From the NCBI GenBank assembly GCA_021819085.1, contig JAKASJ010000012.1, positions 1 through 64,000 on the forward strand: a stretch of DNA of 64,000 nucleotides, written 5' to 3'. Shown piece after piece: positions 416-24,187 of this stretch. The notes under the pieces are model-generated. The model saw only the letters and a program-made list of their open reading frames with translations, did no database searches and was not told where the DNA came from. Source of the stretch: Pseudomonadota bacterium. Lineage in GTDB: Bacteria > Pseudomonadota > Gammaproteobacteria > Acidiferrobacterales > UBA6901. The first letter of the stretch is position 1, and each line of letters starts with the position of its first letter. Both the position numbers and the translations under genes were made by a program.

Positions 416-1616
<1,201 letters not shown>

Positions 1617-8881: not shown

Positions 8882-8950
8882 CGGGTTTCTTTCTGCCGGT
8901 CTCTTCGACGTGCTAGATGTTTTTATGGACAGCTGATCTGTACTTTTCTC

Positions 8951-8990
8951 CTACACTGTACACTGTGTATTGTCTCATCCGATGAGACCG
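8951..8990 (-). promoter_or_regulatory. Candidate operator/attenuator before cas3
   Basis: Between the WYL gene and cas3 there is a tandem heptamer ACACTGT-ACACTGT at 8953-8966 and a perfect inverted repeat GTCTCAT-CCG-ATGAGAC at 8972-8988. The inverted repeat lies directly downstream of the WYL stop codon and could be a weak terminator, an operator, or both. No T-run follows it on the minus strand. Function is inferred from position only. Confidence 0.4.
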
Positions 8991-8995
8991 CCCAG

Positions 8996-9967
8996 TCATT
9001 GCCGATACCTTGAAGCCGCGCGAAGAAGCTGTTCCAAGACTTTCTTGCGCAAGGACTTCGGCCGCAGGACCTCAACGTCGGGCCCATGTTTCAGGATGTC
9101 GAGGACGAGTTCCCGGTCATCGGAATAGGGGATTTCGAGGAGGTAGTGGCCGTCCTCGAAGTGGCCTCTCTGCTGCGGGTGCCAAAGTTCTTCGGCCACC
9201 CAACGGGCGCGCTCGGGCGAGAAGCTCAGGACGGCCTTGCGCCTCGGGTAGCCAGAGAAGATACCGTAACTTTCGGTGAAGTAGCGATTCAGGCGTTCCT
9301 CGGAAATGTCCCTGGCATGTTCATCGAGCAGGTGCGGCTCGCGGATACGTTCGACGGCGAAGGTGCGCAACGCCCGTTTGCCGTGGTCCCATGCGTCGAG
9401 ATACCAGTTATCCCGGTAATGCGCCAGCCGCTGCGGCGAAACTGTCCGTTCGGTGATGTTGCCTCGGGCGCGGCCGTGGTAGTGGAAGCTCATTCGCCTG
9501 CGGGCCAGCAGCGCGTGCGCTACCAATTGAAAGCACGCCGGTTCAGTGTGACGCACGGCTTGGGCGAGAATACGGATGCGGCGGGCGATTTCCTGGAGTG
9601 TCTGATCTTTGCTTTCGAGCAGCGATTGGATGCGTTCTTTGAGCGGTTCGATATGCGGGGAGAGCAAGCCGGGTTCTAAGCTTTCGAGGAAGTGATGAAA
9701 GGTAAGGAGGGCGTGGGCTTCGCGGCTGCTGAACCATAGCCCCGGTAGCTCGTGGCGCAGTGCGCCGGGCGCAGGATCGTTGAGACGATAACCGCACCGG
9801 AGCTGATCGTAGACAATGGGTGTGTCCATCCGGTCGCGCAGGTATTCGAGGTCGCGGTGCAAGGTAGCACGCGATATCTCCAGATCCCGCAGCAGGGTCG
9901 CAGTCGGAACCGCCCCTGCGCCGCGTAGCAGATTCATGATTTTGTAGAATCGCTCGGAACGGTCCAT
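8996..9967 (-). CDS. WYL-domain transcriptional regulator
   Basis: The 323-aa protein has an N-terminal helix-turn-helix (about residues 5-60; LLRDLEISRATLHRDLEYLR), a central WYL-type domain (FHYHGRARGNITERTVSPQRL, NWYLDAWDH, about 155-235) and a WCX-like C-terminus (about 250-315). WYL proteins bind nucleic-acid-like ligands and often control CRISPR-cas and other defence genes. It lies directly upstream of cas3 in the same direction, so it is a candidate local regulator, possibly partly co-transcribed with the cas genes. Confidence 0.88.
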   Translation of the reverse strand: MDRSERFYKIMNLLRGAGAVPTATLLRDLEISRATLHRDLEYLRDRMDTPIVYDQLRCGYRLNDPAPGALRHELPGLWFSSREAHALLTFHHFLESLEPGLLSPHIEPLKERIQSLLESKDQTLQEIARRIRILAQAVRHTEPACFQLVAHALLARRRMSFHYHGRARGNITERTVSPQRLAHYRDNWYLDAWDHGKRALRTFAVERIREPHLLDEHARDISEERLNRYFTESYGIFSGYPRRKAVLSFSPERARWVAEELWHPQQRGHFEDGHYLLEIPYSDDRELVLDILKHGPDVEVLRPKSLRKKVLEQLLRAASRYRQ

Positions 9968-10019
9968 TCCCCCCCCTACCTATTCCCTCGGCGCGCGCAC
10001 TATCGATTCCGTTGGGAAC

Positions 10020-10047
10020 CCTAAGAATTGTTATCAATACCTTTAGG
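10020..10047. repeat. Inverted repeat upstream of the WYL gene
   Basis: CCTAA at 10020-10024 and TTAGG at 10043-10047 flank the AT-rich core GAATTGTTATCAATAC. The element sits in the 75-bp gap before the WYL gene and touches the stop codon of the NYN gene. It could be an operator for WYL autoregulation; the arms are short, so this is weak evidence. Confidence 0.3.
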
Positions 10048-10672
10048 ATTTCTTGGGACGATAATCCCTAGGGTCGGCGCACGAGTCATACAGCGTGCGG
10101 TCGATAGGAAACCAGTCGGTCTTGTCGATGCCGCGTCGGTTGCGTACTGTCGGGCTGACGGGATAACTGCTGACCACCTTGATCCAGCGGTTCTGCTCAT
10201 GGGCAATGACACGGATCTCCGCCGCCGCTTCGGACAAATCCTGATCCTGGCTGAATACCAGCGCAACGTCATATTCGGTGCGGTGCGCCCCGCGGATAAT
10301 GTCCAGGGCGATCCGCACGTCGATGCCTTTCTCCTCACCGACCAGGAACGTGTGCACGTTTCCATTAGGCAGCACGACACGCTGATTCCGGTAACGCAAG
10401 GCTCGCGAAAACACCACGATGCCCGCGCGGCGCATGGCGAGCAGCTTGTTCGACCAGAACCCATGCCAGAAAGGGTGATCCTGCAGGTCCGGCACACCCG
10501 TATAGAAACGCGTTTGCTGAAGCTGCCAACCCCGGGCGGTACACACCGCTTGAGCGAGCTTGCCTACGTCGTAATTGGGATAGGTGTAACCGAAGGCTTC
10601 GCGGGCGGAATGAAAGAGATTTTGTCCGTCGACAAACGCAACCGCGCGGATCTTCTGTGGCTCAAGAGGCAT
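10043..10672 (-). CDS. NYN-domain (PIN-like) nuclease-family protein
   Basis: The 209-aa product starts MPLEPQKIRAVAFVDGQNLF. The acidic residues expected of NYN/PIN-like metal-dependent RNases are visible: D15 in FVDGQN, the aspartates in KGIDVRIALDII near 120, and SQDQDLSEAA near 145. A TTG at 10693 would extend it by 7 aa, but the ATG at 10672 is preferred. It lies 75 bp upstream of the WYL gene in the same direction. Substrate is unknown; its position at the head of the cas cluster suggests, but does not prove, a defence or RNA-turnover role. Confidence 0.8.
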   Translation of the reverse strand: MPLEPQKIRAVAFVDGQNLFHSAREAFGYTYPNYDVGKLAQAVCTARGWQLQQTRFYTGVPDLQDHPFWHGFWSNKLLAMRRAGIVVFSRALRYRNQRVVLPNGNVHTFLVGEEKGIDVRIALDIIRGAHRTEYDVALVFSQDQDLSEAAAEIRVIAHEQNRWIKVVSSYPVSPTVRNRRGIDKTDWFPIDRTLYDSCADPRDYRPKKS

Positions 10673-10691
10673 GGCATGCCCCGGAAACGAC

Positions 10692-10725
10692 AAGCCCCGT
10701 ACGGCAATACTGCCCTACGGGGCTT
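10692..10725. terminator. Strong stem-loop at the NYN 5' end
   Basis: A perfect 10-bp stem AAGCCCCGTA/TACGGGGCTT at 10692-10701 and 10716-10725 encloses a second small stem GGCA/TGCC. On the plus strand it is followed by TCTTTG, a weak U-tract, so it may terminate plus-strand transcripts. On the minus strand it sits about 20 nt before the NYN start codon, where it could affect translation. Which role applies cannot be told from sequence. Confidence 0.5.
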
Positions 10726-11441
10726 CTTTGTGCGGATAACCCCACCCGGGCCACCAAGGCAAGTCGGGCGGGGGGCAAATACATTGTAATTATCGGCATT
10801 TTTGGCAAAAGTTCAAGGTGTTTTATTTATCCGCAGAAACGCCCATCGGTGGTCTCCCTATTCCCCTTAATTCCCACCGTCCGTGCCCTGAATCATATAC
10901 ACAAATGCCGCTACCGAGCTGTATGGTAACACGCTTATAGGGCTATAGGCGGCGGGACGGGCTTCGGGCTTCGCCCCACCGCCCGCCCCGAACCGGGATG
11001 CCGAACGAACAGCAACAACAGTGAAAGCACACGCGCCCGTCCTACGGGACGGGGAGACGGTGCGCGTCCTGGTGCGCATCAGACGCCGCACGCTTCAATC
11101 CGTCTTGCGTTCCTGTCTGGATCTTGGCCCAGGACCCGCCCCCGCCGGGGAGCGGCGGGTGTCTTCACATCGGTGCGCGGTCAGGGGTCTCGATGCGGCA
11201 CGGGTTCGGACAAACCTGTGCCCATGAGCCGCCCCGCACCGTCGGCACCGCGCCAAAATGCCGTGAATGAAGAACGGGCGCGGATGCCCTCAAACCAAGC
11301 CGAACCGAAAGCGGGGCCGAAGGCAGCGGAACCGGACGTGTGTTACGTGGGACACACGGCGGGACCAGTACAGTGGCGCCCTCGAGGTCGGAACGTCACG
11401 AGGAACGCCCCCGATTGCTCCGCAGGAACACAACGCACCGC
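10726..11441. other. Gene-poor accessory DNA
   Basis: No reading frame here has a convincing ribosome binding site or recognisable product. The left part is AT-richer than its surroundings (10790-10930); the right part is very GC-rich with short inverted repeats such as the hairpin around 11435-11450. It looks like decayed or replication-related mobile DNA. Confidence 0.5.
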
Positions 11442-11502
11442 AGGGTGCGATTGTGTGTGCAGCCTACCGCTCGCGGTAGGCGTCTCGCCAGATTCGTCAG
11501 AT

Positions 11503-11713
11503 GGAAAACCCGTGAACGTCCGTACCCCCGACATACCTTCTGCGGAAAACCCGTGAAGCAACGTACCCCGGATGTGTATTCGCCATCCCTTCGGCGTACC
11601 GCGAAAAATGAAAACCCGCGAACGCGCGTACTTTGGACGTACTGCGGTACGTCGCTTCACGAAAACGCGTGAACGAGTAGGCTGGTTGATGAAACGGCGT
11701 GAATTTCCGTACC
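11503..11713 (+). repeat. Five iteron-like direct repeats
   Basis: Five related 24-nt elements begin at 11503, 11544, 11609, 11660 and 11690. The shared core is GAAAACCCGTGAACG, usually followed by CGTACC. Start-to-start spacings are 41, 65, 51 and 30 bp, close to whole helical turns (about 4, 6, 5 and 3). A small inverted repeat ACGTAC-TGCG-GTACGT (11637-11652) lies between copies three and four. The last copy overlaps the likely promoter of the gene at 11753. They could be plasmid-type iterons or operators for that gene. Confidence 0.7.
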
Positions 11714-11752
11714 GCCCTATATATGAGGACACAAGAATCTGGAGGTAGAGAC

Positions 11753-12082
11753 ATGGGACTTGAGAAGCTGCAGCGGGAGTATCCGCCTGGGGCGCGCGGC
11801 ATAGGCGCCCGGGTGCTTAGGGAATACCGGGCCATCACCGACGCACGAACCCACGGTTGGACCTGGGCGGAGATTGCGCAGGCGATGGGGCTGGAAACGA
11901 AGGCCGCACCCCGGGCGCTGGCGAACGCCTACGCCCGGGTGACCCGGAAGATCGAGGCCAAGCAGCTGGTGCCCCCTGCATCGCAGGCGCACGGCAGGCC
12001 ATCACCCATCCGGACCGCACCTGAAAAAGCCGCACCCCCGGAAGCCGGACAACCGGCCCAGGGCGGATTCAAAACACTTTGA
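11753..12082 (+). CDS. Small HTH-like, putative DNA-binding protein
   Basis: The 109-aa product has a good Shine-Dalgarno (GGAGG, 7-8 nt before ATG) and a TATATA box near 11717. Residues 20-65 (REYRAITDARTHGWTWAEIA, then QAMGLETKAAPRALANAYAR) resemble a helix-turn-helix. The C-terminal third is proline/alanine-rich and probably disordered. I do not recognise the family; small proteins of this build are found in plasmid maintenance and mobilisation regions. The iteron-like repeats immediately upstream suggest it may bind them. Confidence 0.6.
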   Translation: MGLEKLQREYPPGARGIGARVLREYRAITDARTHGWTWAEIAQAMGLETKAAPRALANAYARVTRKIEAKQLVPPASQAHGRPSPIRTAPEKAAPPEAGQPAQGGFKTL

Positions 12083-12331
12083 CCCGCCGTGCGACGACGG
12101 TCAGGCGCGCAGAGCGTCCGCTCCACCCCCTCGGGCACGATTAAGCCTCCGAAGTCCGCGTCTGAGCGCCTTCGTCCGCGTTGATCTCTGGCTGAGCGTG
12201 AATGGGCTTTCGTTGTCACCGAGTTGTCACTGATCAGAGGGACGGATGGGGACTTATGCGGGTCGGACGGTGACAGAAGCGGACATTGGCGCTCACCCGG
12301 TCGGGTGAGACTGCACACACAATCGCACCCT

Positions 12332-12804
12332 ACCGGGTTGGATTGTGCGCTGGCCCTACCGAGGCAGGCGCGCCTCTACCTCACGCCGGTTTTGACGTTG
12401 CGGTAAATGGTTCGGCTGGCACCCCCGCTGACCTCCGCTCGCGCCGACGAGCGGGCCTCCCCGACTCAGTCTGCCTGGCCACACGCCTCGCCGAGTGATC
12501 CGACCAGCGCCCGCTTTCTTTCCTGCCGTAGTAGCAGCGGCCGTTGAGTGGAAGAGAACCCGTTCGCGCGCTGGCGCTGAAACGTCGGTAACAGCAGCAG
12601 CAAAGCGTCCCTGTTGTGTCTCCATTTCAGCCGCCTGTCTCGGAGCGCTCAGCTCCGGGGCAATATAACCGAATCAACTCGGCAGAATCAGTCAAGAATA
12701 TTCCTGCCGCTGCGGGCCAGAGAGCGCGCAGCAGCGAGGCGACGCACGTTGACGAGATGCGGAATTTGTCGTGAGATGGTGCTTTGGCCAACGTAGAGTC
12801 CGCA
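12332..12804. other. Intergenic accessory DNA
   Basis: No supportable gene was seen in this stretch. It contains short inverted repeats next to the right arm of the 21-bp inverted repeat and otherwise no motif I can name. Confidence 0.4.
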
Positions 12805-13473
12805 ATGGCGATGAGCAATGGACACGAAATTGCCCGATATTATGCTATGCGTGCGCGCGAGTACGAGCGTGTTTATGAAAAGCCTGAAAGGCAGAACGAT
12901 CTTGCACGACTGAAAGAAATCGTCGGCCCTTTACTTGCATCTCATGTTGTATTGGAAGTCGCGTGTGGGACCGGGTTCTGGACTCAAGTAATCTCAGAGA
13001 AAGCAACGTTCGTTACCGCACTGGACGTTAGCGATGAGGTCCTGGACATTGCCAGACAAAAACCCATTACAGAGGGAAAGGTTGAGTTCAAGAAGGCGGA
13101 TGCCTTTCGCCTTTCGCAGATCACCGGCCAATACACGGCGGCTTTCGCTGCTTTTTGGTGGTCACATATTCCAAAGGAATCGGTTACGTCCTTCCTGCAA
13201 TCGCTGCATCATCCGCTGACGTCTGGCAGTTTAGTGGCGTTCGTTGACAACAGATATATCCCCGGCAATAGCACACCTATCACGGACTGCGATAAATTCG
13301 GAAACACTTACCAGACCAGGAGACTATCGGATGGGACGGAGCACCGGATTATCAAGAACTATCCGAGTAAAACGGAGTTACAGCTCAACCTTGGAGCACA
13401 GGCGGAGAGTTTCCAATTCCAGGAATTGCAATATTATTGGTATGCAACCTATCGCGTGAAAAAAGAGGCGTAA
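12805..13473 (+). CDS. Class I SAM-dependent methyltransferase
   Basis: The 222-aa product has SAM-binding motif I in VVLEVACGTGFWT (about residues 50-62), an acidic motif II (VTALDVSDEVLDIARQK) and FKKADAF later. Substrate cannot be predicted; the build is that of small-molecule methyltransferases. The gene is clearly lower in GC than its neighbours and stands alone, so recent transfer is likely. Starts at 12784, 12805 or 12811 are all possible; none has a strong ribosome binding site. Confidence 0.75.
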   Translation: MAMSNGHEIARYYAMRAREYERVYEKPERQNDLARLKEIVGPLLASHVVLEVACGTGFWTQVISEKATFVTALDVSDEVLDIARQKPITEGKVEFKKADAFRLSQITGQYTAAFAAFWWSHIPKESVTSFLQSLHHPLTSGSLVAFVDNRYIPGNSTPITDCDKFGNTYQTRRLSDGTEHRIIKNYPSKTELQLNLGAQAESFQFQELQYYWYATYRVKKEA

Positions 13474-13725
13474 CACGGCGCTCGACCGCCGGTCTTATCG
13501 GCGATGGCCCAGGCCGACTTTGCGCGGTTTCGCGCCGCCTTTGCCGCGCACTCGGAACAGAGCTCCCTTCGACTCATAGGTCCCGCTTCCTCACCAGCGA
13601 CACGAAATCGGCCAACGTGGCTAGGCCAAGATATGCCGTGATGATTACCCAGAAGATGAAATGAAACCAAAATTCAAACGGCTGGCTTCTTTCAGAGGCA
13701 TTCCCGTCTCACGACGAAATCACCT

Positions 13726-13775
13726 GGTCAATTTTATCCCGGCACAGGTGGTCAATTTAAACCCGGCGCCAACAG
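13726..13775. mobile_element. IS21-like insertion-sequence end (remnant)
   Basis: Two tandem copies of a 20-mer starting TGGTCAATTT lie at 13726-13745 and 13750-13769, 24 bp apart, followed by CCAACA. Duplicated GGTCAATTT-type blocks of this kind occur at the ends of IS21-family elements. No transposase is present, so this is only a terminal remnant. The family assignment is from memory and moderate. Confidence 0.45.
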
Positions 13776-13846
13776 TCGGGATTCTTCCCGATGATTTCCG
13801 CGACCCGGGGTAACGTCAGAACGTGTTGCGATGGATGCTGCGTCAT
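13757..13846 (-). pseudogene. Truncated HTH-type ORF fragment
   Basis: The 29-codon frame MTQHPSQHVLTLPRVAEIIG... resembles the start of small helix-turn-helix/excisionase-like proteins encoded beside mobile elements. It ends abruptly inside the IS21-like end, so it is probably truncated by that insertion. Too short for a firm call. Confidence 0.3.
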
Positions 13847-14367
13847 AGGCCCATCCCTGCGAGGTGTGGTGGGTATGACCGAGAGGGCACGCGCCACCCC
13901 GACTTCGCTCAAAGCGTTGGTCGGAATGGGCGCTATGCGCCGTTGCGCTCGACGTGTGTCGAGAGAGATCGTCGGCAGTGCCGCGTCTTGGGGCTTGGGT
14001 TCCGCCCTTCCGGCAGGCTCATCCTGCGGTGGACCCGCTTCCCCCGTCGCCGTGTTGCGTACCCGTGGCGGTGTGAGTCGCTCACGCACGGGTGCTGGTG
14101 ACGGTATCGCGACAACGCATAAAGTTTAGCAGGTTTCGGTCGTTGCCTAAGCGACACGACTTTGACTGGTGGCACACGCAGGCTCATTGCCGGTTACGCC
14201 GTAACCGCGTATCCGGGTGTTTGGGTCGCGAATTCCATGCGACAATCCTGCGACACTGAGCTTGCGAAAAGGCGCGACGGGACGCGAGGTCACACGCGGT
14301 AAGTGATTGATTCTCGGAAAAAACGGTTGCGCGGTGTTGCGCCGCGTCGGGGCTTGAGCCCCCTCTC

Positions 14368-14409
14368 ACGGCGAAAACAGGGGTTCGAGTCCCCTAGGGA
14401 GCGCCATTA
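14368..14409. repeat. tRNA-3'-end-like repeat, copy 1 (candidate attachment site)
   Basis: The segment contains a T-arm-like sequence (AGGGG-TTCGAGT-CCCCT) followed by an acceptor-like AGGGAGC, G and CCA. No matching 5' half is present, so it is not an intact tRNA gene. A second copy lies 1,166 bp downstream at 15534-15575, identical at 36 of 42 positions, all six differences being transitions. Confidence 0.6.
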
Positions 14410-14474
14410 AAATCAATCAGTTATAGAATTTTCTGGCCGCCTGACCCCGACTTTGCGACCACCCTGCGATTCCC

Positions 14475-14849
14475 GTGAAAAAAGAGGGGGTTGCATGGCG
14501 GCGTTCGTTAAGGCGTCCTGGACCGCACGGCAAGCCTGCCGGGCAGGCATTGATCCGCCGGCGCGGCTACCGGCAGCAGACCCGGACATTCGATAGTCAA
14601 TCCGAAGCGCAGTCCTCGGCACGGGACATCGAGCACGAGAGGAACCGGGGCGCTTTCATCGGCCGTTCGCAATCGGACTCCACTACCCTGCCGGACCTGT
14701 TGGAGCAGCACGAAAAGGAGGTCACGCCGGGCAAACGCGGCTCCATGAAAGAGGTCTCGCACATTGGTGTATTGAAGGGACAGTCACTCGCGCAGATGCT
14801 CCGCCCGGCGATCACCGGAGCATCAGGACAGGACCGGCCCAGGTTTTGA
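14475..14849 (+). pseudogene. Tyrosine integrase, N-terminal fragment
   Basis: The 124-aa frame contains GYRQQTRTFDSQSEAQSSAR, then DIEHERNRGAFIGRSQSDST and TLPDLLEQHEKEVTP, the usual N-terminal arm-binding region of phage/island integrases. It stops at about residue 124, before the catalytic domain (no R-H-R-Y motifs follow). It sits just after a tRNA-like repeat, where island integrases are normally found. Clearly a remnant. Confidence 0.7.
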
Positions 14850-15122
14850 TCACGGCACGCCAATACTCGGATACCACGATGCCCTCCTTAAGGAGCGCGA
14901 TTCCTGCTCCAGAGAATCCCGCTTGTCGTAAAAAAATCCCCTGGGAAGATACCTGGAGTCGGGGGCTACAAGGATGGCCAGTCCCGCAACGATCATGCAG
15001 AGCAAACCGGCGAGAAAAGAGAAGTCGCTTTTTCATCTTTGCGGCGCCGCCCTAGCGGCACCAATCCGGAACCAGGGTAAGGGCTAATTTACTCACCTAA
15101 TCGGGGCCACCCATGGGGTGAC

Positions 15123-15405
15123 TCAAGTTGCCTTCGCACGTTGGGTCTGTATCACCACTTTTCTGCCGGCACGCGCGGGCATGTTCACGAACATATCGAT
15201 CGTGAACAATGTGATCTTTCCGCGCACGAGATCGCTGATGCGCGGCTGCGACACACCAAGAAGCTTGGCGGCCGTGCCTGGGTCAGGGCTTTGCGCAGGA
15301 TGTATCCCGGATCTCGATCATGAGATCGGCGCGGATCCGCAGATTCTCGGCAGTTTCCTTGCCGAAGCCAAGATCGGCGAACACGTTATCGGAAGAGCGG
15401 GTCAT
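15123..15405 (-). pseudogene. XRE-family antitoxin (HigA-like), frameshifted
   Basis: The 5' part starts at ATG 15405 and reads MTRSSDNVFADLGFGKETAE, as in XRE antitoxins, then hits a stop near 15300. The 3' part continues in another frame with AAKLLGVSQPRISDLVRGKI and MFVNMPARAGRKVVIQTQRA. At least one frameshift destroys the turn between the two. The start overlaps the stop of an upstream toxin fragment (ATGA). Confidence 0.75.
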
Positions 15406-15518
15406 CTTCCTAGGAACCTATGACGCGATGCAATCAACCGTTTGAATCGGGCTTTCGCGATCTCCATGCCGGCCTTGGACGTCTGCGGCGTCTTCTCCAC
15501 GAAGCGCCAGGCTAGCAA
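15402..15518 (-). pseudogene. HigB/RelE-like (Gp49-type) toxin, C-terminal fragment
   Basis: Only the last 38 codons are left: LLAWRFVEKTPQTSKAGMEI, then AKARFKRLI, the typical end of phage-Gp49-like toxins. The stop codon overlaps the antitoxin start (ATGA), the normal toxin-antitoxin order. The rest of the toxin is missing; the break lies next to the second tRNA-like repeat at 15534. Confidence 0.65.
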
Positions 15519-15533
15519 AGGTTGAACAGACTG

Positions 15534-15575
15534 ACGGTGAAAACAGAAGTTCGAGCCCCCTGGGGAGCGTCATTA
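15534..15575. repeat. tRNA-3'-end-like repeat, copy 2 (candidate attachment site)
   Basis: This is the second copy of the repeat at 14368-14409. With it, it brackets the integrase fragment and the broken toxin-antitoxin pair, as expected for the ends of a small decayed integrative element. Neither copy includes a full tRNA. Confidence 0.55.
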
Positions 15576-15605
15576 CCCCAACAGGTTACATGCCTCCCCG
15601 TGATT

Positions 15606-16823
15606 TCAGTGCTCCCGGTCACGGTGATCCTGCGGCCGGTCCCCTGCCGGCGCTTGCGTGCCGGCCGCTACGATGCACGCCTTGCCTCTCGCCTTGGCCT
15701 GATACATGCGCCAGTCGGCCAAGGCCAGCAATGCCCGCCAATCCGCGGAAAGAGGGATACCGTCACGCAGAAGCTCCGCAATCCCGGCGCTGAAGGTCAG
15801 GACCGTTCCGTCCCCGCGCGGGCACAGCTGACACTTGCCGTCCTTGCATAACCGGCCGAGCTGCCGCTGCGCTTCGTTGATATCGGTATGGGGCAGCACC
15901 TGGAGGAACTCCTCACCTCCCCAGCGAATCAGAATGTCGCTTGTGCGCATGTTCGCGCGCAGCAGCCGGGCCGTCGTGCGCAGCGCGGCGTCGCCTGCAT
16001 TATGGCCGTCAACGTCGTTGAGCCGCTTGAAGTCATCGAGGTCCAAAAACACCAGCGACAGCGGATAGCCGTAACGGCGCGCCAAGTCGAACTGCTGAAC
16101 GAGGAATTCTTCCCCGCTACGCCGGTTATACACTCCCGTGAGAGGGTCGAAGGCCGAACCCTGAAACAGCTCGTACATGAGCTGTAGCTGGCTCATGGAT
16201 GCCACGGCGCTGATCAAAACGACCAGCAGCAGTAACCACAGCACCATTGCTCCGTCCAGCCCGGGAAGCGTGCCCAGCGGAAACGCTGCGACTGCGATCA
16301 GTGGTAGCGCAAGGCTGACAATCTCGACCAGCGTGAGCGGGAAGATGCTCAGACCCACCACGAGCGCGAACGGAAGAAACATGTAGCCGATCGCGACGGC
16401 CGTTCCCACCGACGTGAGTTGTGCCCCTTGCAAGACGTGCACAGAATAGAGATAGAACGCCGACGGAATCAGATACAGCAGAACCATCGTCCGATAGGAG
16501 TTGCCGAGACTTGGCCGGCAGCGGCAAGAGAATACCAGGCCTGCGAAGGCGGCGCTCGCGATCAACCGTGCGAACACGATCGGTACATAAATCGCGCGCG
16601 GGAAAACCATCACGTCCACGACGATCCACAGTAGCGTCAGGACCGCAAACAATGCTGCCACCGCGCGCGCACGTGAAATCACGAAACGGGCCCGATACAT
16701 CCTGAACAGCGGCGAATGCGATGCCGTGCTCAGCACCTGTCCGACCAGATCCGGAACGGTCGGACGAAGTTCCCTGAAAAATCGTGCCGTCCGTTTCCTG
16801 AACCTTTCCGGATCGGGCGCCAC
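15606..16823 (-). CDS. Membrane-bound diguanylate cyclase (GGDEF)
   Basis: The 405-aa protein makes cyclic di-GMP. About six hydrophobic helices occupy residues 50-220, followed by a GGDEF domain (DPLTGVYNRRSGEEF, FLDLDDFKRLND). The active loop is GGEEF at about 302-306, and an inhibitory I-site RTSD lies exactly five residues before it, so the enzyme is probably active and product-inhibited. The GTG start at 16823 overlaps the stop of the upstream XRE-PAS gene (TAGTG), implying translational coupling. Longer starts inside the upstream gene are less likely. Confidence 0.9.
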   Translation of the reverse strand: MAPDPERFRKRTARFFRELRPTVPDLVGQVLSTASHSPLFRMYRARFVISRARAVAALFAVLTLLWIVVDVMVFPRAIYVPIVFARLIASAAFAGLVFSCRCRPSLGNSYRTMVLLYLIPSAFYLYSVHVLQGAQLTSVGTAVAIGYMFLPFALVVGLSIFPLTLVEIVSLALPLIAVAAFPLGTLPGLDGAMVLWLLLLVVLISAVASMSQLQLMYELFQGSAFDPLTGVYNRRSGEEFLVQQFDLARRYGYPLSLVFLDLDDFKRLNDVDGHNAGDAALRTTARLLRANMRTSDILIRWGGEEFLQVLPHTDINEAQRQLGRLCKDGKCQLCPRGDGTVLTFSAGIAELLRDGIPLSADWRALLALADWRMYQAKARGKACIVAAGTQAPAGDRPQDHRDREH

Positions 16824-17446
16824 TAGCTCTCCGGCTTCATGTCCTGAAAAGCCCGCGACCTGCTCCTGCCAGCAGCGTGACTGACAGCGATCTCCGAGAA
16901 GATCCAAAGGTATCGAGCAGGCGTCATGCCCCGGTGCGGCGTGACTGCGATGATTTCCAGCACCGCCGAATAGGTCTCGCCATTCCGGCGCTGGCCCCGG
17001 ATCTCGCCGGACCAGAGTCCGGAGCGTTCAATCGCTCCGTGCATCGCTGCAAAAAAGGCTTCGTCGTACTTCCCGGACTGGAGAGACGTCGGCGTCTTTC
17101 CGATCACCTCCTGGCTTCCGCAGCCAGTCATATCGGTATAGGCGGAATTGACCTGGAGGATCCGGAACCCGGCATCAGTGACAATCACCCCTTCGCGCAG
17201 GCGTTCTATCATCAGATCCGGATCCCTGCACTGGAATGCATGCATGCAAAAATCCCTGAGCGAGATCCGCAGAGCACGCGCGATGCGCTCGATCACCTCG
17301 ATCGAGAAATTTTCCCGTCCGTTCTCGATGGCAGAGAGGTACTGATAGGTGATACCGGCCTTGTGGGCGAGCCCATCGAGAGTAAGCCTGCGCTGGCTTC
17401 TGATGACACGAACACAGATGCCAACCAGTCTCTGTGCTTTTTCCAT
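16823..17446 (-). CDS. XRE helix-turn-helix regulator with PAS domain
   Basis: The 207-aa protein has an N-terminal HTH_3 domain (about 8-62; LDGLAHKAGITYQYLSAIEN) and a PAS domain (about 75-190; LREGVIVTDAGFRILQVNSA, KTPTSLQSGKYDEAFF). The PAS region probably senses a ligand or redox signal. It is coupled to the diguanylate cyclase by a one-base overlap. A perfect palindrome at 17483-17498 just upstream is its likely autoregulatory operator. A start at 17461 is also possible. Confidence 0.88.
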   Translation of the reverse strand: MEKAQRLVGICVRVIRSQRRLTLDGLAHKAGITYQYLSAIENGRENFSIEVIERIARALRISLRDFCMHAFQCRDPDLMIERLREGVIVTDAGFRILQVNSAYTDMTGCGSQEVIGKTPTSLQSGKYDEAFFAAMHGAIERSGLWSGEIRGQRRNGETYSAVLEIIAVTPHRGMTPARYLWIFSEIAVSHAAGRSRSRAFQDMKPES

Positions 17447-17482
17447 TGGTCGACAATGCATGGAGACATTTGACGTAGTTCA

Positions 17483-17498
17483 TTCAACTATAGTTGAA
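17483..17498. promoter_or_regulatory. 16-bp palindromic operator
   Basis: TTCAACTATAGTTGAA is a perfect palindrome lying 36 bp upstream of the XRE-PAS start codon. Its length and two-fold symmetry fit an XRE dimer site, and its centre (CTATAG) could overlap a -10 box. Confidence 0.7.
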
Positions 17499-17499
17499 A

Positions 17500-18340
17500 T
17501 ACACCGTCCGCGTCGAACCCCGGCCTCGTCCGGAGGCACAGGAGGATAAACCTGGCGCCTTGGGTCGGCCGCGCGGGACGATGACCGGCAGGACCGGATA
17601 TTCCTTCAGGGCCCGGCACGGAGCAGGCGCTGCGGCCAAGCTGGATCGATCACGGAAAAGGTTTTGACATGCTCTGCAGGATAGGTTGCTCCGGATAGCA
17701 ACTTCGATTGCTGCCGGCAGTGGCAGTGCGTGCCCGCACAAAGAACTGTCGAATTCCAGATGTTCGAGCATGCGCCTCGTGAAACCGACGCCTTGTCATT
17801 CGTTGACCGCCCGGCCCGTGAATTGCAGTTCGATTCTCATATCGCCTTCGAACCGAACACGTGCGGAATCTTGTCAAACGGAAATCGGCCTCCCCCACCG
17901 AATCCGCAACGCATCAGTTTTCCGAAATGGTTTCCATCAAGAATGGGGGGTTTATGGAGCATCCGGATTTGGAATGAATCCGTGTAGCCAGTCCCTTGAT
18001 TCCCGTTGACGACATCGGCATGGCTTTCCCGTAATTCATATCAAAAAAAGAGAGACGGATTCAAGGCGCATTACACAACGGCCGCAATGCAGCAGTGCAA
18101 TATAGGTGCAGTTTGAGAAATCGAGGTATAGAGTAGTGGTCATGGTGGCATCCACCGCCAACAGAGGCTCCATGGAATGGCTAGACCTCCGGTCGCGGCA
18201 CGACCACTTCGGTGACCTGCGGAAAATTATGACGTACGGTGGCTCGAAGCACATCTTTTAAAGATTAATACGTGACGTCTCTCCGGGCTGCAAAGCGCAG
18301 GGATCATACGCGCAAAGTCAAACTCAAGGAGAAACACGAT
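17500..18340. other. Long intergenic region before ompA
   Basis: No frame here has a plausible product. The last 300 bp are AT-richer and must carry the promoter for the OmpA gene, but I could not fix a -35/-10 pair with confidence. A ribosome binding site AAGGAG lies about 10 nt before ATG 18341. Confidence 0.4.
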
Positions 18341-19336
18341 ATGAAACCGCACCAAACTTCTTTCCTGGTATTCGCTGCGCTTGTCTCGGTTGCCCTGAGT
18401 ACGTCGGTGAAAGCCGACAGCGGAAACTACGACGATCGCTTTTATATCACACCCCAGTACACCTATACCTGGCCGGACAGCAGTGAGGCCACCAAAAACG
18501 GAAGTGGCTGGCAACTCGATCTCGGCAAGCCCGTGAGTCGCCAGTGGAATCTGGAATTCGGTGCGATCGACTATAAGCTTGATTATAAAAACAGCTCGCT
18601 GGGCTCGTTTCACCAGACCGCCTACGGCCTGAATGGCCTGTGGTTCTTCAACGAGCGGCCGAAGCTGTTCTCACCCTTCGTTCTGGTCGGCGCAGGCGCC
18701 AACGATCAGCGTAACAGCATCGGCAGCAGCAAAACCGAGCCTTATGGAACCCTGGGGCTCGGTTTCCTCACCTCCCCGTGGGCGTGGGGTGGCGCGATCC
18801 GCGTCGGCGTCCAGGATCTGCACACATTCGGAAACGGAAACTATAACGACGTTATTGCGAGCATCGGGCTGCAGATCCCGCTCGGCGCTGCGCCCGCGCC
18901 GGAATCTGAACCCGAACCTGCGCCGGCGCCTGCACCCGAAGAACCCGCCGCAGCACCGGTGCCACCTCCGCCTCCGCCGGCCCCGGCAAGCCCCCGGATC
19001 ATCCAGCTTCCAGGCGTGCAATTCGTCACCAATTCCGCGCATCTGCTGCCGGTGTCCCGGAGCACCCTGAATCGGGCCGTACACATCCTCAAGGCCAATC
19101 CTGACATCGACGCCGAGGTAGCCGGGTATACGGACAGCACAGGCAAAGCCTCCTATAACCTCAGACTGTCGCAGCGCCGGGCAGAGGCGGTGAAACAATA
19201 CCTGGTACGTCACGGCATCGATGCCGCGCGTCTATCTGCCAAGGGATACGGCGAGGCCGACCCCATCGCATCCAACCGGACTGCGGCCGGGCGTGCGCAG
19301 AACCGTCGTGTGGAACTTCGCATCACCCGTCCGTAA
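18341..19336 (+). CDS. OmpA-family outer membrane protein
   Basis: The 331-aa protein has a signal peptide (about 1-26, ending SVKA), an eight-strand-like beta-barrel (about 30-185), a Pro/Ala/Glu-rich linker (about 188-230) and a C-terminal OmpA domain (about 235-331) with VAGYTDSTGKASYNLRLSQR and NRRVELRI, the peptidoglycan-binding signature. It likely anchors the outer membrane to the wall. The start at 18341 has a good Shine-Dalgarno. A GC-rich hairpin follows the stop. Confidence 0.92.
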   Translation: MKPHQTSFLVFAALVSVALSTSVKADSGNYDDRFYITPQYTYTWPDSSEATKNGSGWQLDLGKPVSRQWNLEFGAIDYKLDYKNSSLGSFHQTAYGLNGLWFFNERPKLFSPFVLVGAGANDQRNSIGSSKTEPYGTLGLGFLTSPWAWGGAIRVGVQDLHTFGNGNYNDVIASIGLQIPLGAAPAPESEPEPAPAPAPEEPAAAPVPPPPPPAPASPRIIQLPGVQFVTNSAHLLPVSRSTLNRAVHILKANPDIDAEVAGYTDSTGKASYNLRLSQRRAEAVKQYLVRHGIDAARLSAKGYGEADPIASNRTAAGRAQNRRVELRITRP

Positions 19337-19349
19337 GGACACGGCATGA

Positions 19350-19378
19350 CGGCCGGACCGGCGAAGCCTGTCCGGCCG
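19350..19378 (+). terminator. Stem-loop after ompA
   Basis: CGGCCGGAC and GTCCGGCCG form a perfect 9-bp stem with an 11-nt loop 13 bp after the OmpA stop. No U-tract follows, so it is a weak terminator or mRNA-stabilising hairpin. Confidence 0.5.
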
Positions 19379-19922
19379 AACGAAATGTAGGGCAGCGATG
19401 GCGCCAGGGTCCGGGCGGCCGACAACCGGTCGGGCGAGATCGGCTCTGCCGCGAATCAATTTCGACAGCCGCTCCGTTGCGGACCGGGGCTCCGTCGCTG
19501 CGCTACACACCCGTCACATCCAGTTGGGTGCGGACCACACGGCCTCCCGCCCCGGGACGCATTGGCGCCTGAAAAAGATTCCAGCTCTCGGGGTGCGTTC
19601 GCGAAAAGTGACCCCGGATGTGCCAGTGCGGATCCCAGATGGATCGAGAAGGGCATGCGCCATACGGTCAATTACCGGGCCGCGAAATTCCACGGGTTCT
19701 CGTGAACGGAGCGGCACCAGTTTCTGATGACACACATGCACCGGTGCCAGCCGGTATCCGTCGCACCAGAGGGTCCGGGGCGCAGTGCGGCTGGCGGACA
19801 GAATCCTCTCTGGCCGGCCGGCACCGGTAAACGCAGCGGCAGGTCCTGTTCCAGATCGCCACCTTGATATCGGCCGTGGCGGCCCGCATATCGTGAGCCC
19901 GAAACCATCTGGATTCTTGATC
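19379..19922. other. Intergenic region, no gene seen
   Basis: This GC-rich stretch between ompA and the thioredoxin gene holds frames in several directions, but none with a ribosome binding site or known product. Confidence 0.4.
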
Positions 19923-20786
19923 ATGACCAACTCACCCTATGTCGCGGATGTCACGCAGTCCGACTTCGATACGCTGGTCCTGAACCGCTCGCACACCACT
20001 CCGGTGCTGGTCGATTTCTGGGCGTCCTGGTGCGCGCCCTGCAAGATGCTCATGCCGGTTCTGGCACGCCTCGCCGATCAGTACCAGGGAAGGTTCTATC
20101 TCGCCAAGGTCAATACCGACGTCGAGCGGGAACTTGCCACACGATACGGCATACGCAGTCTTCCAACGGTCAAGCTGTTCAAGGACGGGGCGGTGGTCGA
20201 CGAATTCATGGGCGTGCAGCCGGAACCGGTCATCCGCGAAATCATCGACCGCCACGCGCCGCGTCCGTCGGACACCCTCCTGCACGAGGCCAGGCAGGCG
20301 CTCGAAAGCAATCAGACGCGCCAGGCGGCTGATATTCTGAAGCGCGCGCTCGACATGGATCCCGAAAACGACCACGTCAAGATGGAGCTGGCCGGCCTGC
20401 TGCTGGCCGAGGGCCGCGTGGAAGACGGCGAACGCATGCTCGACAGCCTGTCGCGCGCCGCGAAGTCAGCGCCGGAGGCGGCCGCAATGCTCGCGCGACT
20501 GGAAATCGCGCACATCGCCGCCGGCAGCCCCGCGCCAGACGAACTTGCGCGGATCATTGCCGCGAAACCCGAGGCCAGCGAGGCACGCTACCAGCTGAGC
20601 GCGCACAAGGTGCTGCAGGGCGATTACGAATCGGCCCTCGCGCTGCTGCTGGAAATCGTCCGGCATGATCGTCGGTTCCGCGATGACGCCGCGCGCAAGA
20701 CGATGCTGACGATCTTCACATTGCTTGGTGGCAAAGGGGATCTGGTCAAGCGCTACCGAAACCAGCTGTCGATGGCGCTGAATTAG
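19923..20786 (+). CDS. cnoX: CnoX-like thioredoxin/TPR chaperone
   Basis: The 287-aa product has an N-terminal thioredoxin fold with active site WCAPC (C37, C40) and the cis-Pro region SLPTVKLFKDG, then TPR-type helices from about 115 to the end. Length and build match CnoX/YbbN (E. coli 284 aa), a holdase that transfers substrates to GroEL. E. coli CnoX lacks the full CXXC; here both cysteines are present, as in many other bacteria, so redox activity is expected. The ATG at 19923 is chosen because homology begins there. Confidence 0.88.
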   Translation: MTNSPYVADVTQSDFDTLVLNRSHTTPVLVDFWASWCAPCKMLMPVLARLADQYQGRFYLAKVNTDVERELATRYGIRSLPTVKLFKDGAVVDEFMGVQPEPVIREIIDRHAPRPSDTLLHEARQALESNQTRQAADILKRALDMDPENDHVKMELAGLLLAEGRVEDGERMLDSLSRAAKSAPEAAAMLARLEIAHIAAGSPAPDELARIIAAKPEASEARYQLSAHKVLQGDYESALALLLEIVRHDRRFRDDAARKTMLTIFTLLGGKGDLVKRYRNQLSMALN

Positions 20787-21068
20787 CCACGGCCGCCTCT
20801 GCCACCGCTATCGGCCGGAAACCGCTCCCGAATCAACCGCATTGCCGCCTCCCGGCAGCCCCGGGTCTTTATCCACACCGCCACCCCTCGCCCAACGGGA
20901 CGGTTTTGAACCGTTGAAGTCGGTGTGCTAGCGTAAGCTTCGCGGCCCGCCGGGCGGAACGCAGGGACCGTCCGCACGGGTTCTGCATCCTGCACGGTGA
21001 CCCGTCGCCTTGTTCCCCGCAGGCATCGCGCCGGTTGCCCCGCCATATCCGGTTAACAAGGAGCTCCG

Positions 21069-21461
21069 ATGATGACCAGAACTCCCCGTTTCCTTGCGCT
21101 GGCGGCGGTCGCAGTGCTGGCCGCGGGCGCGCCTGCTGTCAGTCTGGCGGCTGCGCCGCGGGTGATCGACGTGAAAATCGGGAGCTACTACATCAAACCC
21201 GACAAGATCTCGGTCACGGTCAACCGTCCCGTAACCCTGGTGATCAAAAACCAGGCCTGGCTGATTCCCCACGATCTGGTGGTGAAGGCACCGTCCGCAG
21301 GCGTGAATTTCAAGGTCAACCTACACGGCGGCCAGAATGGAAGCGTGACGTTCACGCCTACCCGGACCGGAAGCTACAAGATGTACTGCGACAAGAAGCC
21401 TTGGTTCGGCAAGAGCCACGAAGCCCGTGGCATGCACGGGGTGCTGAAGGTCGTTCCGTAA
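21069..21461 (+). CDS. Periplasmic cupredoxin-domain protein
   Basis: The 130-aa protein has a signal peptide (about 1-28, cleaved after SLA or LAA) and a cupredoxin fold. Probable type-1 copper ligands are H68 (IPHDL), C107 (MYCDKK), H117 (KSHE) and M122 (RGM). It may be a small electron carrier or a copper-binding protein. AAGGAG lies 6 nt before the ATG. The DUF2784 gene follows after 48 bp and may be co-transcribed. Confidence 0.8.
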   Translation: MMTRTPRFLALAAVAVLAAGAPAVSLAAAPRVIDVKIGSYYIKPDKISVTVNRPVTLVIKNQAWLIPHDLVVKAPSAGVNFKVNLHGGQNGSVTFTPTRTGSYKMYCDKKPWFGKSHEARGMHGVLKVVP

Positions 21462-21509
21462 GCGGCACGACCCGACCCGCTCCCTCACCCGGCGGCAGGG
21501 ATTCCGGAA

Positions 21510-21860
21510 ATGTTTTATCAGACCCTTGCCGATATCGTGGTGGTCGTGCATCTCGGGTGGATTCTGTTTCTCATCTTCGGTGCGATTCCCGGCCGCCGCT
21601 GGCGGTGGGTGCGGTGGCTGCACCTCGGCGCGCTGGCCTTTTCCGTCGCACTGCAGAGCTGCTCGTGGATCTGCCCGTTAACCTACCTCGAAGTCTGGCT
21701 GCGCTCCCTGGCAGGCAATGTCGAAGCCTACCATAGCGGCTTCATCACCCATTATGCCGAACGGCTCGTCTATGCCCGGCTTCCCCGCCGTGCGGAACTC
21801 GGAGCCACGATCATCATCGTGGTCGCCAGCCTGTGGGCGTATTTCGCGCCACGGCGATGA
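21510..21860 (+). CDS. DUF2784 membrane protein
   Basis: The 116-aa protein has three to four membrane helices and matches the DUF2784 pattern: YQTLADIVVVVHLGWILFL at the N-terminus, a CSWICPLTYLEVWLR segment in the middle and a basic C-terminus. Function of the family is unknown. It probably forms an operon with the cupredoxin gene. Confidence 0.75.
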   Translation: MFYQTLADIVVVVHLGWILFLIFGAIPGRRWRWVRWLHLGALAFSVALQSCSWICPLTYLEVWLRSLAGNVEAYHSGFITHYAERLVYARLPRRAELGATIIIVVASLWAYFAPRR

Positions 21861-22013
21861 GCCGGAATCGGCGTCGATGCGCGACGGTCGCCGGACCGGC
21901 AATCGGCATAAAGTGCAACGTCGGGTTTAATTTCAGGGAATTCGATCCGGGCTACCGGCTGAGGCACTGATCCGGCGCTGCGACAGGCCGGAGACGGAGC
22001 GTGGAACCGACGC

Positions 22014-22328
22014 TCAGCGCCGGCTGCGCCGCTGCTCTGCGCCTTCGTTCTGGCGGTCATCCTCCCGGACCACGCTGTATTCTCCTTCGAGCGGCTCATC
22101 GCGAAGCCCGTGCGCACCGACCACAGCGGAGCGCAGCTTGCGGCGCAACCACCAGGTCCGCGCACCGAAGCCGAGTGTCGCCAGCAGGAACAGGGCGATG
22201 ACCGCCGTGAAAAAGAATACCGAAAACAGGGCGACGCCTGCCACGATTGGAACCAGCGCCAGATAACGCAGCCACGACTGCGGTTGCCGCTGACCTAGTT
22301 TGCCGAAACTGCCGTCTTCCTGGTTCAT
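22014..22328 (-). CDS. Small membrane protein of unknown function
   Basis: The 104-aa product has two closely spaced hydrophobic helices (about 20-62; YLALVPIVAGVALFSVFFF, then a second) and a charged C-terminus ending in EQRRSRR. No family is recognised. The ATG at 22328 is used because upstream residues look non-coding. Confidence 0.6.
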   Translation of the reverse strand: MNQEDGSFGKLGQRQPQSWLRYLALVPIVAGVALFSVFFFTAVIALFLLATLGFGARTWWLRRKLRSAVVGAHGLRDEPLEGEYSVVREDDRQNEGAEQRRSRR

Positions 22329-22401
22329 GATCCTACGTCTGGCCGCTGCGAGCTGCGCACCCGAGTGGACGCCGCCGGCAGATAAATTGAAACAGCCCGC
22401 A

Positions 22402-22815
22402 TCACACGCGGGGACCGCGCCGCCCCGGCTTGGAGGCAGCGACATACCTTACCATTTCATGGCAGGGCAAATTTTCCAGAGCTCCGTAACGCAGCTTCGC
22501 TGCGCGTACCCATGAATGAATGCTGTCGGATCCGGCAGGATGCTCCTCACGCAGCAGTGCCTGCAGTGCGGCAAGGCCGCCGAAGACAATTTTCATTTCC
22601 TTGCCGAAAGGCAGCTCGCGCGCCGTATCCGTGACCTTGAGCGCGAAGCGCGACGCCTCGCGCAGCAACAGCAGCAGTGTCACGCAGTCATGCCGGGCGT
22701 CCGCAGACTGGCACGCCACCCCGGTCCGCTCGCCCACATAATGATGCACAGCCTTCTCGCACAGGAATTGGGTACTGAGAATCGCTTTTTCAAACGGACA
22801 GCGGTTGCTCTCCAT
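22402..22815 (-). CDS. Conserved hypothetical, cysteine-rich N-terminus
   Basis: The 137-aa product begins MESNRCPFEKAILSTQFLCE and has four cysteines at about 6, 19, 35 and 44, spaced as if to bind a metal or cluster. I recall similar short proteins in sulfur-oxidising gammaproteobacteria but know of no assigned function. The last ~20 residues are basic and may run past the conserved part. Confidence 0.6.
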   Translation of the reverse strand: MESNRCPFEKAILSTQFLCEKAVHHYVGERTGVACQSADARHDCVTLLLLLREASRFALKVTDTARELPFGKEMKIVFGGLAALQALLREEHPAGSDSIHSWVRAAKLRYGALENLPCHEMVRYVAASKPGRRGPRV

Positions 22816-22903
22816 CGTTGATGCCTTCCTGCATGGTATATGCGCCCGCTACCCGCGGTTTCCAAGTGTCCCGGCACATCTGCCTGGACGGCACGCCGGG
22901 CTG

Positions 22904-23575
22904 CTAGCCTGCGAGGCGCGCTGCCAGCCAGCGGCTGATATCCTTGATTTCACTCGGGCAGATGGAGTGTTCCATCGGATATTCGTGCCATTCGATGCTT
23001 GCGCCGCCTCCCACCAGCAGGTTATGCGCTGCCTGCGCCGTGGCGAAGGGGATGATGCCATCGTAGGTGCCATGCGCCATGAAGATCGGAGTCAGCCGGT
23101 TGGCCGGTTCAGCCTGACCCATCAGGCTGCCGGCAAGCGGTATGGGGGAGGACAGGGCCATGATCCCGCCGAGGCGTTTCGGAAAACGCAACCCCGTAAA
23201 AAGCGCTATCGCGCCTCCCTGGGAAAACCCGCCGAGCACCACGCGCTCCGCCGGGATGCCGCGCGCCACCTCCGCTTCGATCAGATTCCGCACGATCGCC
23301 TCCGATTCGCGGATATGGGTCAGCTTCTGGTTGAATCCGGTATCGGTCAATTCGATGTCATACCATGCGCGCATCACCTGTCCGGCGTTGATGGTCACCG
23401 GGCGGTATGGCGCATGCGGAAATACGAAACGTACGGCCAGGGCGCGTGGCAGTCCGAGCTCCGGGACGAGGGTGGCGAGGTCGCGCCCGTCCGCGCCGAG
23501 CCCGTGCAGCCAGATCACGCTCGCATCCGGCCGCGGCGCGGTCTGCAGTTCTATCGGGGATTCCTCTTGCTCCAC
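22904..23575 (-). CDS. Phospholipase/carboxylesterase family hydrolase
   Basis: The 223-aa alpha/beta hydrolase shows the oxyanion segment VIWLHGLGADG, nucleophile elbow GFSQGG (Ser near 118), the aspartate in HGTYDGIIP and the histidine in PMEHSI. This is the complete catalytic triad of the Abhydrolase_2 family, which hydrolyses short acyl esters. It lies 36 bp upstream of queD on the same strand. Confidence 0.9.
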   Translation of the reverse strand: MEQEESPIELQTAPRPDASVIWLHGLGADGRDLATLVPELGLPRALAVRFVFPHAPYRPVTINAGQVMRAWYDIELTDTGFNQKLTHIRESEAIVRNLIEAEVARGIPAERVVLGGFSQGGAIALFTGLRFPKRLGGIMALSSPIPLAGSLMGQAEPANRLTPIFMAHGTYDGIIPFATAQAAHNLLVGGGASIEWHEYPMEHSICPSEIKDISRWLAARLAG

Positions 23576-23611
23576 GTTCGCTCCACGCTCATTTCACAGC
23601 TGCACCGGACG

Positions 23612-23968
23612 TCATTCGCCCGTGTAGACACAGCCGGCAGTACAGGTTTCGCGCACAATCAGCTTCGACAGCTGCGGCAGCTGCGGCTGCAGCGTCCGCC
23701 AGATCCAGCGTGCCAGATGCTCGCTGGTCGGATTCTCCAGCCCCGGGATCTCGTTCAGGTAATGATGGTCCAGCTGCTCGTAGACCGGAGTGAATGCGCG
23801 GCTGATATCGGCAAAATCCATCACCCAGCCCTCGCGCTCGGCAAGTGATCCGGAAACGTGTATCTCCACGCGGAAGGAATGGCCGTGAAGGCGACGGCAC
23901 TTGTGGTTCTCAGGCAGGTTGGGTAACCGGTGCGCCGCCTCGATTGTGAAGACCTTGAAAATTTCCAC
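23612..23968 (-). CDS. queD: 6-carboxytetrahydropterin synthase QueD
   Basis: The 118-aa enzyme makes 6-carboxy-tetrahydropterin in queuosine synthesis. Zinc-binding histidines are visible in EAAHRLP and LHGHSF, with catalytic C24 ([10 protein letters not shown]), the LDHHYLNE motif and the ending [11 protein letters not shown]. The GTG at 23968 gives a start at the usual position ([16 protein letters not shown]) and has GGAG 7 nt upstream. The open frame extends far upstream but only non-coding sequence lies there. Confidence 0.92.
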
Positions 23969-24187
23969 CGACTGCTCCGAAATTATGCCGCTCGCCGGGC
24001 GGCACACGCCAACAGCCGTGCCACCGACCCTACAAGGATTGCACAGAAAATGCCGGGGATCAAAATCCGGACGGGCGAACCCCTTTGCGTCGAGACGTTC
24101 GGCTACCTGCGGGCAGCGCATCCACGCTAGAATCATTAGTTCAGCGGCCCGTCTTCCGTGGGCTCGCCACCGCACCGGACGAGGGAA

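Follow-up and report, generated by a model that had tools for sequence, protein, structure and literature searches.

Two overlapping genes in the DNA analysed here, a stretch of 64,000 nucleotides from a Pseudomonadota bacterium (the window), resemble in their sequences an R-M controller operon in which a diguanylate cyclase stands in the endonuclease's place and the regulator carries a PAS sensor. The likeness is drawn because the site in front of the pair has the plan of a C-box, recurs upstream of related HTH domains and belongs to a family of loci in which the bases TATAGTT go with a glutamine in the recognition helix. The palindrome TTCAACTATAGTTGAA is very probably, on sequence grounds, the operator of the regulator, and we find it reasonably likely that the two genes make one operon with an autoregulator as its first product.

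The gene pair and its junction

On the minus strand, the gene of an XRE-PAS protein is followed by that of a diguanylate cyclase with transmembrane segments and a GGDEF domain, with a one-base overlap in the sequence TAGTG. The features discussed below are these:

15606..16823, minus strand: diguanylate cyclase, with hydrophobic (transmembrane) N-terminal segments, a C-terminal GGDEF domain and a GTG start
16821..16825, minus strand: TAGTG junction, TAG (16825-16823) and GTG (16823-16821) having one G in common
16823..17461, minus strand: XRE-PAS regulator, longest reading from ATG 17461, likely start ATG 17446
16829..16832, minus strand: GGAG, Shine-Dalgarno-like by eye, 5' of the cyclase GTG and within the XRE-PAS gene
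16886..17224, minus strand: PAS domain, residues about 80-192 (Pfam PAS 2.6e-9)
17249..17404, minus strand: HTH, restriction-controller-like (Pfam HTH_3, residues 20-71, 9.5e-12; HTH tree; PADLOC)
17483..17498, no strand: palindrome TTCAACTATAGTTGAA, perfect over 16 bp, predicted operator with the C-box plan AAC-TATA-GTT
17487..17516, minus strand: possible sigma70-type promoter (TCGACG, 18 nt, TATAGT), its -10 inside the palindrome

The sequence, the translations and the Pfam matches (HTH_3, PAS and GGDEF) bear out the genes and coordinates of the original prediction; its description of the genes as fused was wrong, as they are two separate reading frames that overlap. That they form a two-gene unit is supported by the TAGTG overlap, which is kept in three of the five genomes of the genus set, namely the window's own (G000), G003 and a remnant in G002; the GGAG before the cyclase GTG is also present in G003 and G002. 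Because the first start reads GTG in G003, and because the first frame of G002 runs for three codons and ends short of the second ATG, the conserved start of the XRE-PAS gene is probably that second ATG (17446). The protein is 207-212 amino acids long, PAS domain included.

By its sequence, the product of the second gene probably makes c-di-GMP. Its GGDEF domain (Pfam 1.4e-34) has a GGEEF sequence, which we take to be the active-site motif, and the protein carries several hydrophobic segments (hydropathy) and an RTSD (RxxD) sequence, presumably the inhibitory-site motif; GGEEF and RxxD are present in 7/7 rows of the genus group. A paralogous cyclase found in G000:C32, G003:C39 and G033:C146 (L052, L053 and L058; G033 belongs to another family) is almost identical in the three genomes according to the tree, by recent transfer or contamination.

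The palindrome, the promoter and chance

The palindrome lies at -52 from ATG 17446, over a -10-like TATAGT, and is perfect over its 16 bp, as had been claimed. Finding one somewhere in the window is not notable, since perfect 16-bp palindromes occur there at 16 places, five of which are one CRISPR-like repeat (shuffle mean 1.8), but a perfect palindrome within 120 bp upstream of ATG 17461 has a P of 0.0026. The sigma70-like promoter taken alone is not significant, because the scan found one where shuffles of 14800-18400 gave 1.3 as expected. The repeat just mentioned belongs to the end of a CRISPR-like array at 49-308 of the window (five repeats, period 61, with the palindrome CCCCACGCGCGTGGGG inside), after which comes a type I-E-like cas set at about 696-9967. 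There Pfam recognises Cas1 (696-1658), CRISPR_assoc of the Cas6e kind (1719-2342) and Cas3 (6263-8881), the frames between the cas genes have by eye the look of Cascade subunits, and 8996-9967 resembles a WYL regulator.

The original prediction had suggested a search for further sites. In the window's own genome none besides TTCAACTATAGTTGAA was found within three mismatches (the control, the pattern read backwards, gave two), so the regulon would probably be the XRE-PAS/cyclase operon alone. In G003, a full site with two mismatches is present. When a 12-mer half was sought with one mismatch in the five genus genomes, the operators were found together with one extra place each in G000 and G002, against 0 to 8 per genome and strand for the reversed-pattern controls. 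One place in the window's genome, G000:C47:6246-6257 (L159), reads CCTATAGTTGAA, 12 bases identical to those in the sites of two more distant genomes described below (G196 and G824); it precedes by about 170 bp a frame that we take, from its look, to be BrnT-like, and the count is at chance level.

The palindrome might also be merely a symmetric -10 box, with XRE-PAS inactive or active at other places and the cyclase constitutive, a reading that we consider improbable and to which the following sections return. In its favour, exact 14-mers of the site occur in other genomes at about the chance rate (4 of the 368 others among 369 class genomes, against 3 control hits). A scan of viral contigs gave 35 exact stretches, and none of these 35, nor of the four genome sites, adjoins an HTH of the family, so these exact sites are read as chance; weak HTH matches (E 0.14) are found in L096 and L098, about 2 kb from the exact site. 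The P of 0.0026 given above for a palindrome at this position speaks against a fortuitously symmetric -10 box.

Recurrence of the site with related HTH domains

The role of the palindrome as operator, proposed in the original prediction, gains support at the sequence level from the recurrence of the site in front of the nearest HTH relatives found, where the surrounding genes are different. Beyond the genus, the closest HTH in the 369 class genomes is that of G196 (44% over 72 residues, E 5.3e-19), where it opens a 299-aa protein adjoined by a divergent DNA methyltransferase (PADLOC MTase_II 4.3e-81). The C-terminal part of this protein gives a weak PADLOC match to REase_II (0.0053, residues 104-170) and no Pfam nuclease; by eye it has a PD...ExK-like stretch, presumably a nuclease motif, and a Klebsiella plasmid carries a distant relative of this part (23.5%), which likewise adjoins a methyltransferase. 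In 147 genomes of the order of G196 there are two orthologous loci (G824 and G860, with the fusion layout read from the similarity of the translations), plus two more distant HTHs. The three loci (L073, L145 and L146 in G196, G824 and G860) look like controller-endonuclease fusions, made of an HTH and a PD-(D/E)xK-like domain with a divergent methyltransferase, and an identical 21-bp stretch, CTATAGTTGAAAGACTGTCAA, is common to the regions upstream of all three.

The site stands at -51/-52 from the start codon in G196, G824 and G860, with 15, 14 and 14 of the 16 bases, a match reached by 0/1000 shuffles for each of the three loci, which are orthologues and hence not independent. At least 14/16 anywhere in 200 positions has, by composition, a P of about 1e-5 to 2e-4, and the two more distant HTH loci reach only 8/16. 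In a first table of 25 loci, more than 10/16 was found in genus members and G196 only. The HTHs of the genus and of G196, G824 and G860 (five in all) form one clade (99/96). A plain -10 TATAGT accounts for part of the shared bases, as a merely symmetric -10 box would have it, but the bases beyond it also match, at the same distance from the start: given TATAGT, at least 8/10 of the other bases has a P of 5.7e-4 per place and at least 9/10 a P of 4.3e-5. Since the likeness runs slightly beyond the palindrome, the promoter and the HTH may have travelled together. The promoter of G002, where the HTH is lost, gives a poorer alignment to the restriction loci, its score being reached by 24-100 of 2000 shuffles against 1-7 for the promoters of G000 and G003. 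No HTH relative was found among 206 pattern stretches of viral contigs, and the HTH-nuclease protein gave no match in phage records. HTH-only matches such as those in G031, G070, G017, G029, G023 and G052 stand outside this site test.

The relation between a recognition residue and the bases of the site

According to the accessible text of PMC3758141, the site of C.Esp1396I consists of GAC and GTC around a TATA spacer (GAC-TATA-GTC). That of the window, AAC-TATA-GTT, has the same C-box plan, being symmetric with a TATA centre and located in the regulator's own promoter. As far as PMC4041747 could be consulted, C.Esp1396I contacts the bases through Arg35, Thr36 and Arg46, and its Thr36 to Ala mutant has no measurable binding left. 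In the window protein these positions are Tyr, Gln and Glu, with 0/3 of those contacts kept, and recognition must therefore differ in detail from that of C.Esp1396I.

Thr36 of C.Esp1396I aligns to position 35 of our HTH alignment, which is Gln40 of the window protein. TATAGT or its complement is present within 160 bp upstream in 13 of 27 HTH loci, which come from several searches for relatives plus the genus and were all found by likeness to the window HTH. TATAGTT stands upstream in 8/8 of the loci with Gln35, which make up about three groups and are not independent, and in 0/19 of the others, where TATAGTG or TATAGTC is found in 5/19 and neither in 14/19, other Ser35 and Thr35 loci included. 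The Ser35 locus L142 has TCACTATAGTGA upstream; the Thr35 locus L128, adjoining endonuclease-like and cytosine-methylase-like frames (read from the translations), has GGGACTATAGTCCC; L003, a 28th locus added later, has Ser35 and no TATAGT. The bases after the TATAGT core were thus seen to follow position 35, as GTT for Gln, GTGA for Ser and GTCC for one Thr. The table of 27 left out L141 (whose frame is the same as that of L125), the G002 remnant L046, which figures in the first table of 25, and the PAS matches L075-L083, and it counts L131 and L132 each despite their identical HTHs. We regard the position-35 rule for the bases after TATAGT, as read from these sequences, as a lead and not a law. 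Such tracking of the recognition-helix residue by the flanking bases in the wider family is a further argument against a merely symmetric -10 box.

Comparison within the genus

The cyclase is present in 5/5 genomes of the genus (identity to that of the window: 92% in G003, 74% in G002, 70% in G001 and 67% in G004), and a complete XRE-PAS gene, among the matches listed, in two of the five (G000 and G003, 84% identical). The conservation of the pair, one of the checks proposed at the outset, thus holds in part, with the pair intact in 2/5 genomes among those matches and the palindrome kept there at 16/16 and 15/16; G002 has 14/16. When G000 and G003 are compared, conservation is no higher in the palindrome (15/16) than in the surrounding promoter block (40/43), which a merely symmetric -10 box would explain, and the recognition helix of G003 differs by Tyr41 to His and Ser43 to Phe.

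Only 39 codons of the XRE-PAS gene are left in G002, still in frame, with the start of the HTH running directly into the final five residues; part of the HTH and the whole PAS domain are gone, and TAGTG and TATAGT are retained. That this DNA resembles the promoter and the start of the HTH in G000 is certain, with a score of 513 against 161 for the best of 300 shuffles. TATAGT is kept in G003 and G002 and occurs in G004 within a similar stretch, CAGCTATAGTAGAAT; its persistence in G002, with most of the HTH lost, and in G004, with no XRE recognised, again fits a plain -10 box. No XRE was recognised in G001, in G004 or with two additional G001-like cyclase copies in G003. A short frame that precedes the G001-like cyclases and a portion of the G004 spacer were considered as decayed XRE genes, and alignment against shuffles did not support this (shuffles reaching the DNA score: 163/300 for G001, 166 for G003b, 195 for G003c and 23 for G004; at the protein level, 68-166 of 2000 for G001 and G003b). 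An old loss of the XRE upstream of the G001-like and G004 cyclases is possible.

The cyclase tree puts G000 and G003 together (99/99) and does not settle how G002, G004 and the G001 group branch, so the XRE-PAS gene may have been gained inside the genus or lost several times. Since four close relatives have one whole copy, one remnant and two none, the regulator seems, from this comparison, to be a recent or dispensable addition. It is also under weaker constraint, because its dN/dS is 0.53 against 0.25 for the cyclase, which by these comparisons is retained in more genomes and is under the stronger constraint. The XRE-PAS/cyclase circuit is, as read from the genus, a lineage-specific and weakly constrained arrangement.

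The retention in G002 of a 39-codon frame with TAGTG and promoter, after the whole PAS and some of the HTH had been lost, and the dN/dS of 0.53 could also mean that the upstream gene is mainly a translated leader which feeds ribosomes to the cyclase start, HTH regulation being vestigial. We hold this to be rather improbable, given that all 212 codons are open in G000 and G003, that HTH and PAS are recognised in the window protein and that the G001-like and G004 cyclases manage with no recognisable XRE. A test of translational coupling for the similar C/R overlap of PvuII was moreover negative, as far as the available part of PMC2997769 tells, so that the overlap here need not mean coupling.

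Several neighbouring features also vary. A thioredoxin-like gene (read from the translations) lies opposite the cyclase in G001, G002 and G004, and an OmpA-family gene (window 18272-19336) separates the regulator from the thioredoxin gene in G000 and G003 and is absent there in G001, G002 and G004. The two extra cyclase copies of G003, on contigs C54 and C29 (L049 and L050), are near-identical to that of G001, and that bin is possibly mixed.

The XRE-PAS protein and its putative ligand

The HTH is of the XRE type and related in sequence to C proteins (C.BclI 7.5e-5, C.Esp1396I 7.7e-5, C.AhdI 7.7e-4); in PADLOC, HTH_VI comes first (1.8e-13) and Control_protein after it (7.7e-10). This kinship is not exclusive, because the HTHs of SinR and DdrO score better against that of the window than C proteins do. 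AlphaFold, run on two sequences, gave a confident HTH and a poor PAS (mean pLDDT 60.8). None of the 91 plasmid records that match the regulator does so over 80% of its length. An XRE-PAS match over residues 14-192 was found in G007 inside a 964-aa frame, and a candidate full relative in G039 (residues 3-192) was discarded, its translation having a second PAS-like part and no visible HTH.

In sequence, the PAS domain most resembles those that precede GGDEF/EAL domains (NCBIfam DibA, 4.8e-26 over residues 60-193). Its best matches of solved structure are NifL (2gj3) and 3ewk, listed as 'Sensor protein', which we take to be an MmoS-type, flavin-binding sensor. PAS-GGDEF(-EAL) proteins such as DibA and flavin sensors of the NifL/MmoS type thus hold the closest PAS sequences; unlike in the DibA type, PAS and GGDEF here belong to two different proteins, and the one with the PAS also has a DNA-binding domain. 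The PAS1 domain of NifL binds FAD, and eight contact residues are given in the accessible part of PMC8063818. Of these eight, one is identical in XRE-PAS (Thr41); Leu90 is Ile, and Asn102, Trp87, Tyr83, Arg80, Glu70 and Ala45 are replaced in both XRE-PAS orthologues. FAD is accordingly unsupported as the ligand, as judged by those eight contacts, and other ligands are possible.

Relation to known operons and proposed mechanism

The pair has in common with the controller operons of type II R-M systems (C.Esp1396I, C.AhdI and C.PvuII) an XRE HTH, a symmetric, TATA-centred site in its own promoter and an effector gene downstream that overlaps the regulator gene. It is unlike them in that the effector is a diguanylate cyclase and not an endonuclease, that the regulator has a PAS domain, that one site is seen here against OL and OR, and that the half-site is GTT against GTC. 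C proteins are, as we take it, small and HTH-only, and the window protein, at 207-212 amino acids with PAS, is neither. In the window's genome, two matches to N6/N4 methylases are both on other contigs, and no restriction or DNA-methylase gene was noticed by eye in 10000-24000 of the window (some of whose frames were family-searched). With no adjoining restriction genes, a size beyond the HTH alone and the C.Esp1396I contacts replaced, the pair would be a variant of controller-type autoregulated operons and not a member of the C-protein family.

The accessible text of PMC2997769 describes controller operons whose regulator and effector genes abut or overlap within about 20 nt. Controller-endonuclease fusions exist as well, according to the part of PMC3850674 available, and like the window protein those of the CR.NsoJS138I type have a controller-type HTH at the N-terminus of a longer protein and a site upstream; in the window, by contrast, the partner domain is a PAS and the enzyme is a separate gene. 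The loci of G196, G824 and G860 look like further fusions of the CR.NsoJS138I kind. Another restriction-system repressor, RptR, binds palindromes over its own -10 and stands upstream of non-restriction genes in some genomes (PMC12255303, from the portion accessible); as far as seen there, it does not belong to the family treated here. The claim that no system of this form had been described stands to the extent that no pair of XRE or controller, PAS and diguanylate cyclase was found in the literature (titles and abstract openings, with most subscription journals outside); its plan, on the other hand, closely follows that of R-M controller-protein operons.

In the mechanism that we propose, an XRE HTH dimer would bind the palindrome covering the -10 and set the transcription of both genes, presumably with repression as the main effect. 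The PAS domain would shift dimerisation or DNA affinity on meeting a small molecule or a redox change, and the overlapping stop and start, together with the GGAG, may hold the cyclase in proportion to the regulator. Released repression would give more membrane cyclase and more c-di-GMP, a rise that the inhibitory-site motif would cap. The route from PAS signal through operator release to c-di-GMP, put forward in the original prediction, is plausible, and the whole account, with an autoregulated operon, an HTH on the -10 palindrome, PAS gating and cyclase output, seems to us fairly likely to be right.

Repression is favoured because a single site covers the -10 and because G002 keeps promoter and cyclase with an incomplete HTH, which is hardly compatible with dependence on an activator. 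A site on the -10 usually hinders the polymerase, and no second full site was seen in the 100 bp upstream. That XRE-PAS instead activates its own operon, by positive feedback like that of C proteins on C/R promoters, seems unlikely to us on these grounds; the -35-like TCGACG is nevertheless poor (4/6), as expected of an activated promoter, and C proteins activate as well as repress, one of the controller-endonuclease fusions doing both (in the accessible part of PMC3850674).

Beyond the repressed operon favoured here, we put forward tentatively, and with more doubt than confidence, the joint proposal that an R-M controller cassette was co-opted for PAS-gated control of c-di-GMP and that the position-36-type residue (Gln, Ser or Thr) predicts the bases after TATAGT. 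If true, a switch of defence systems would have been reused for ordinary signalling, and c-di-GMP synthesis would be placed in a new way under one-component control. The genus would then offer a natural series (switch intact, diverged, deleted and not recognised) for the effect of losing it, and the relation between residue and bases would make predictable the operators of many uncharacterised controller-like XRE proteins.
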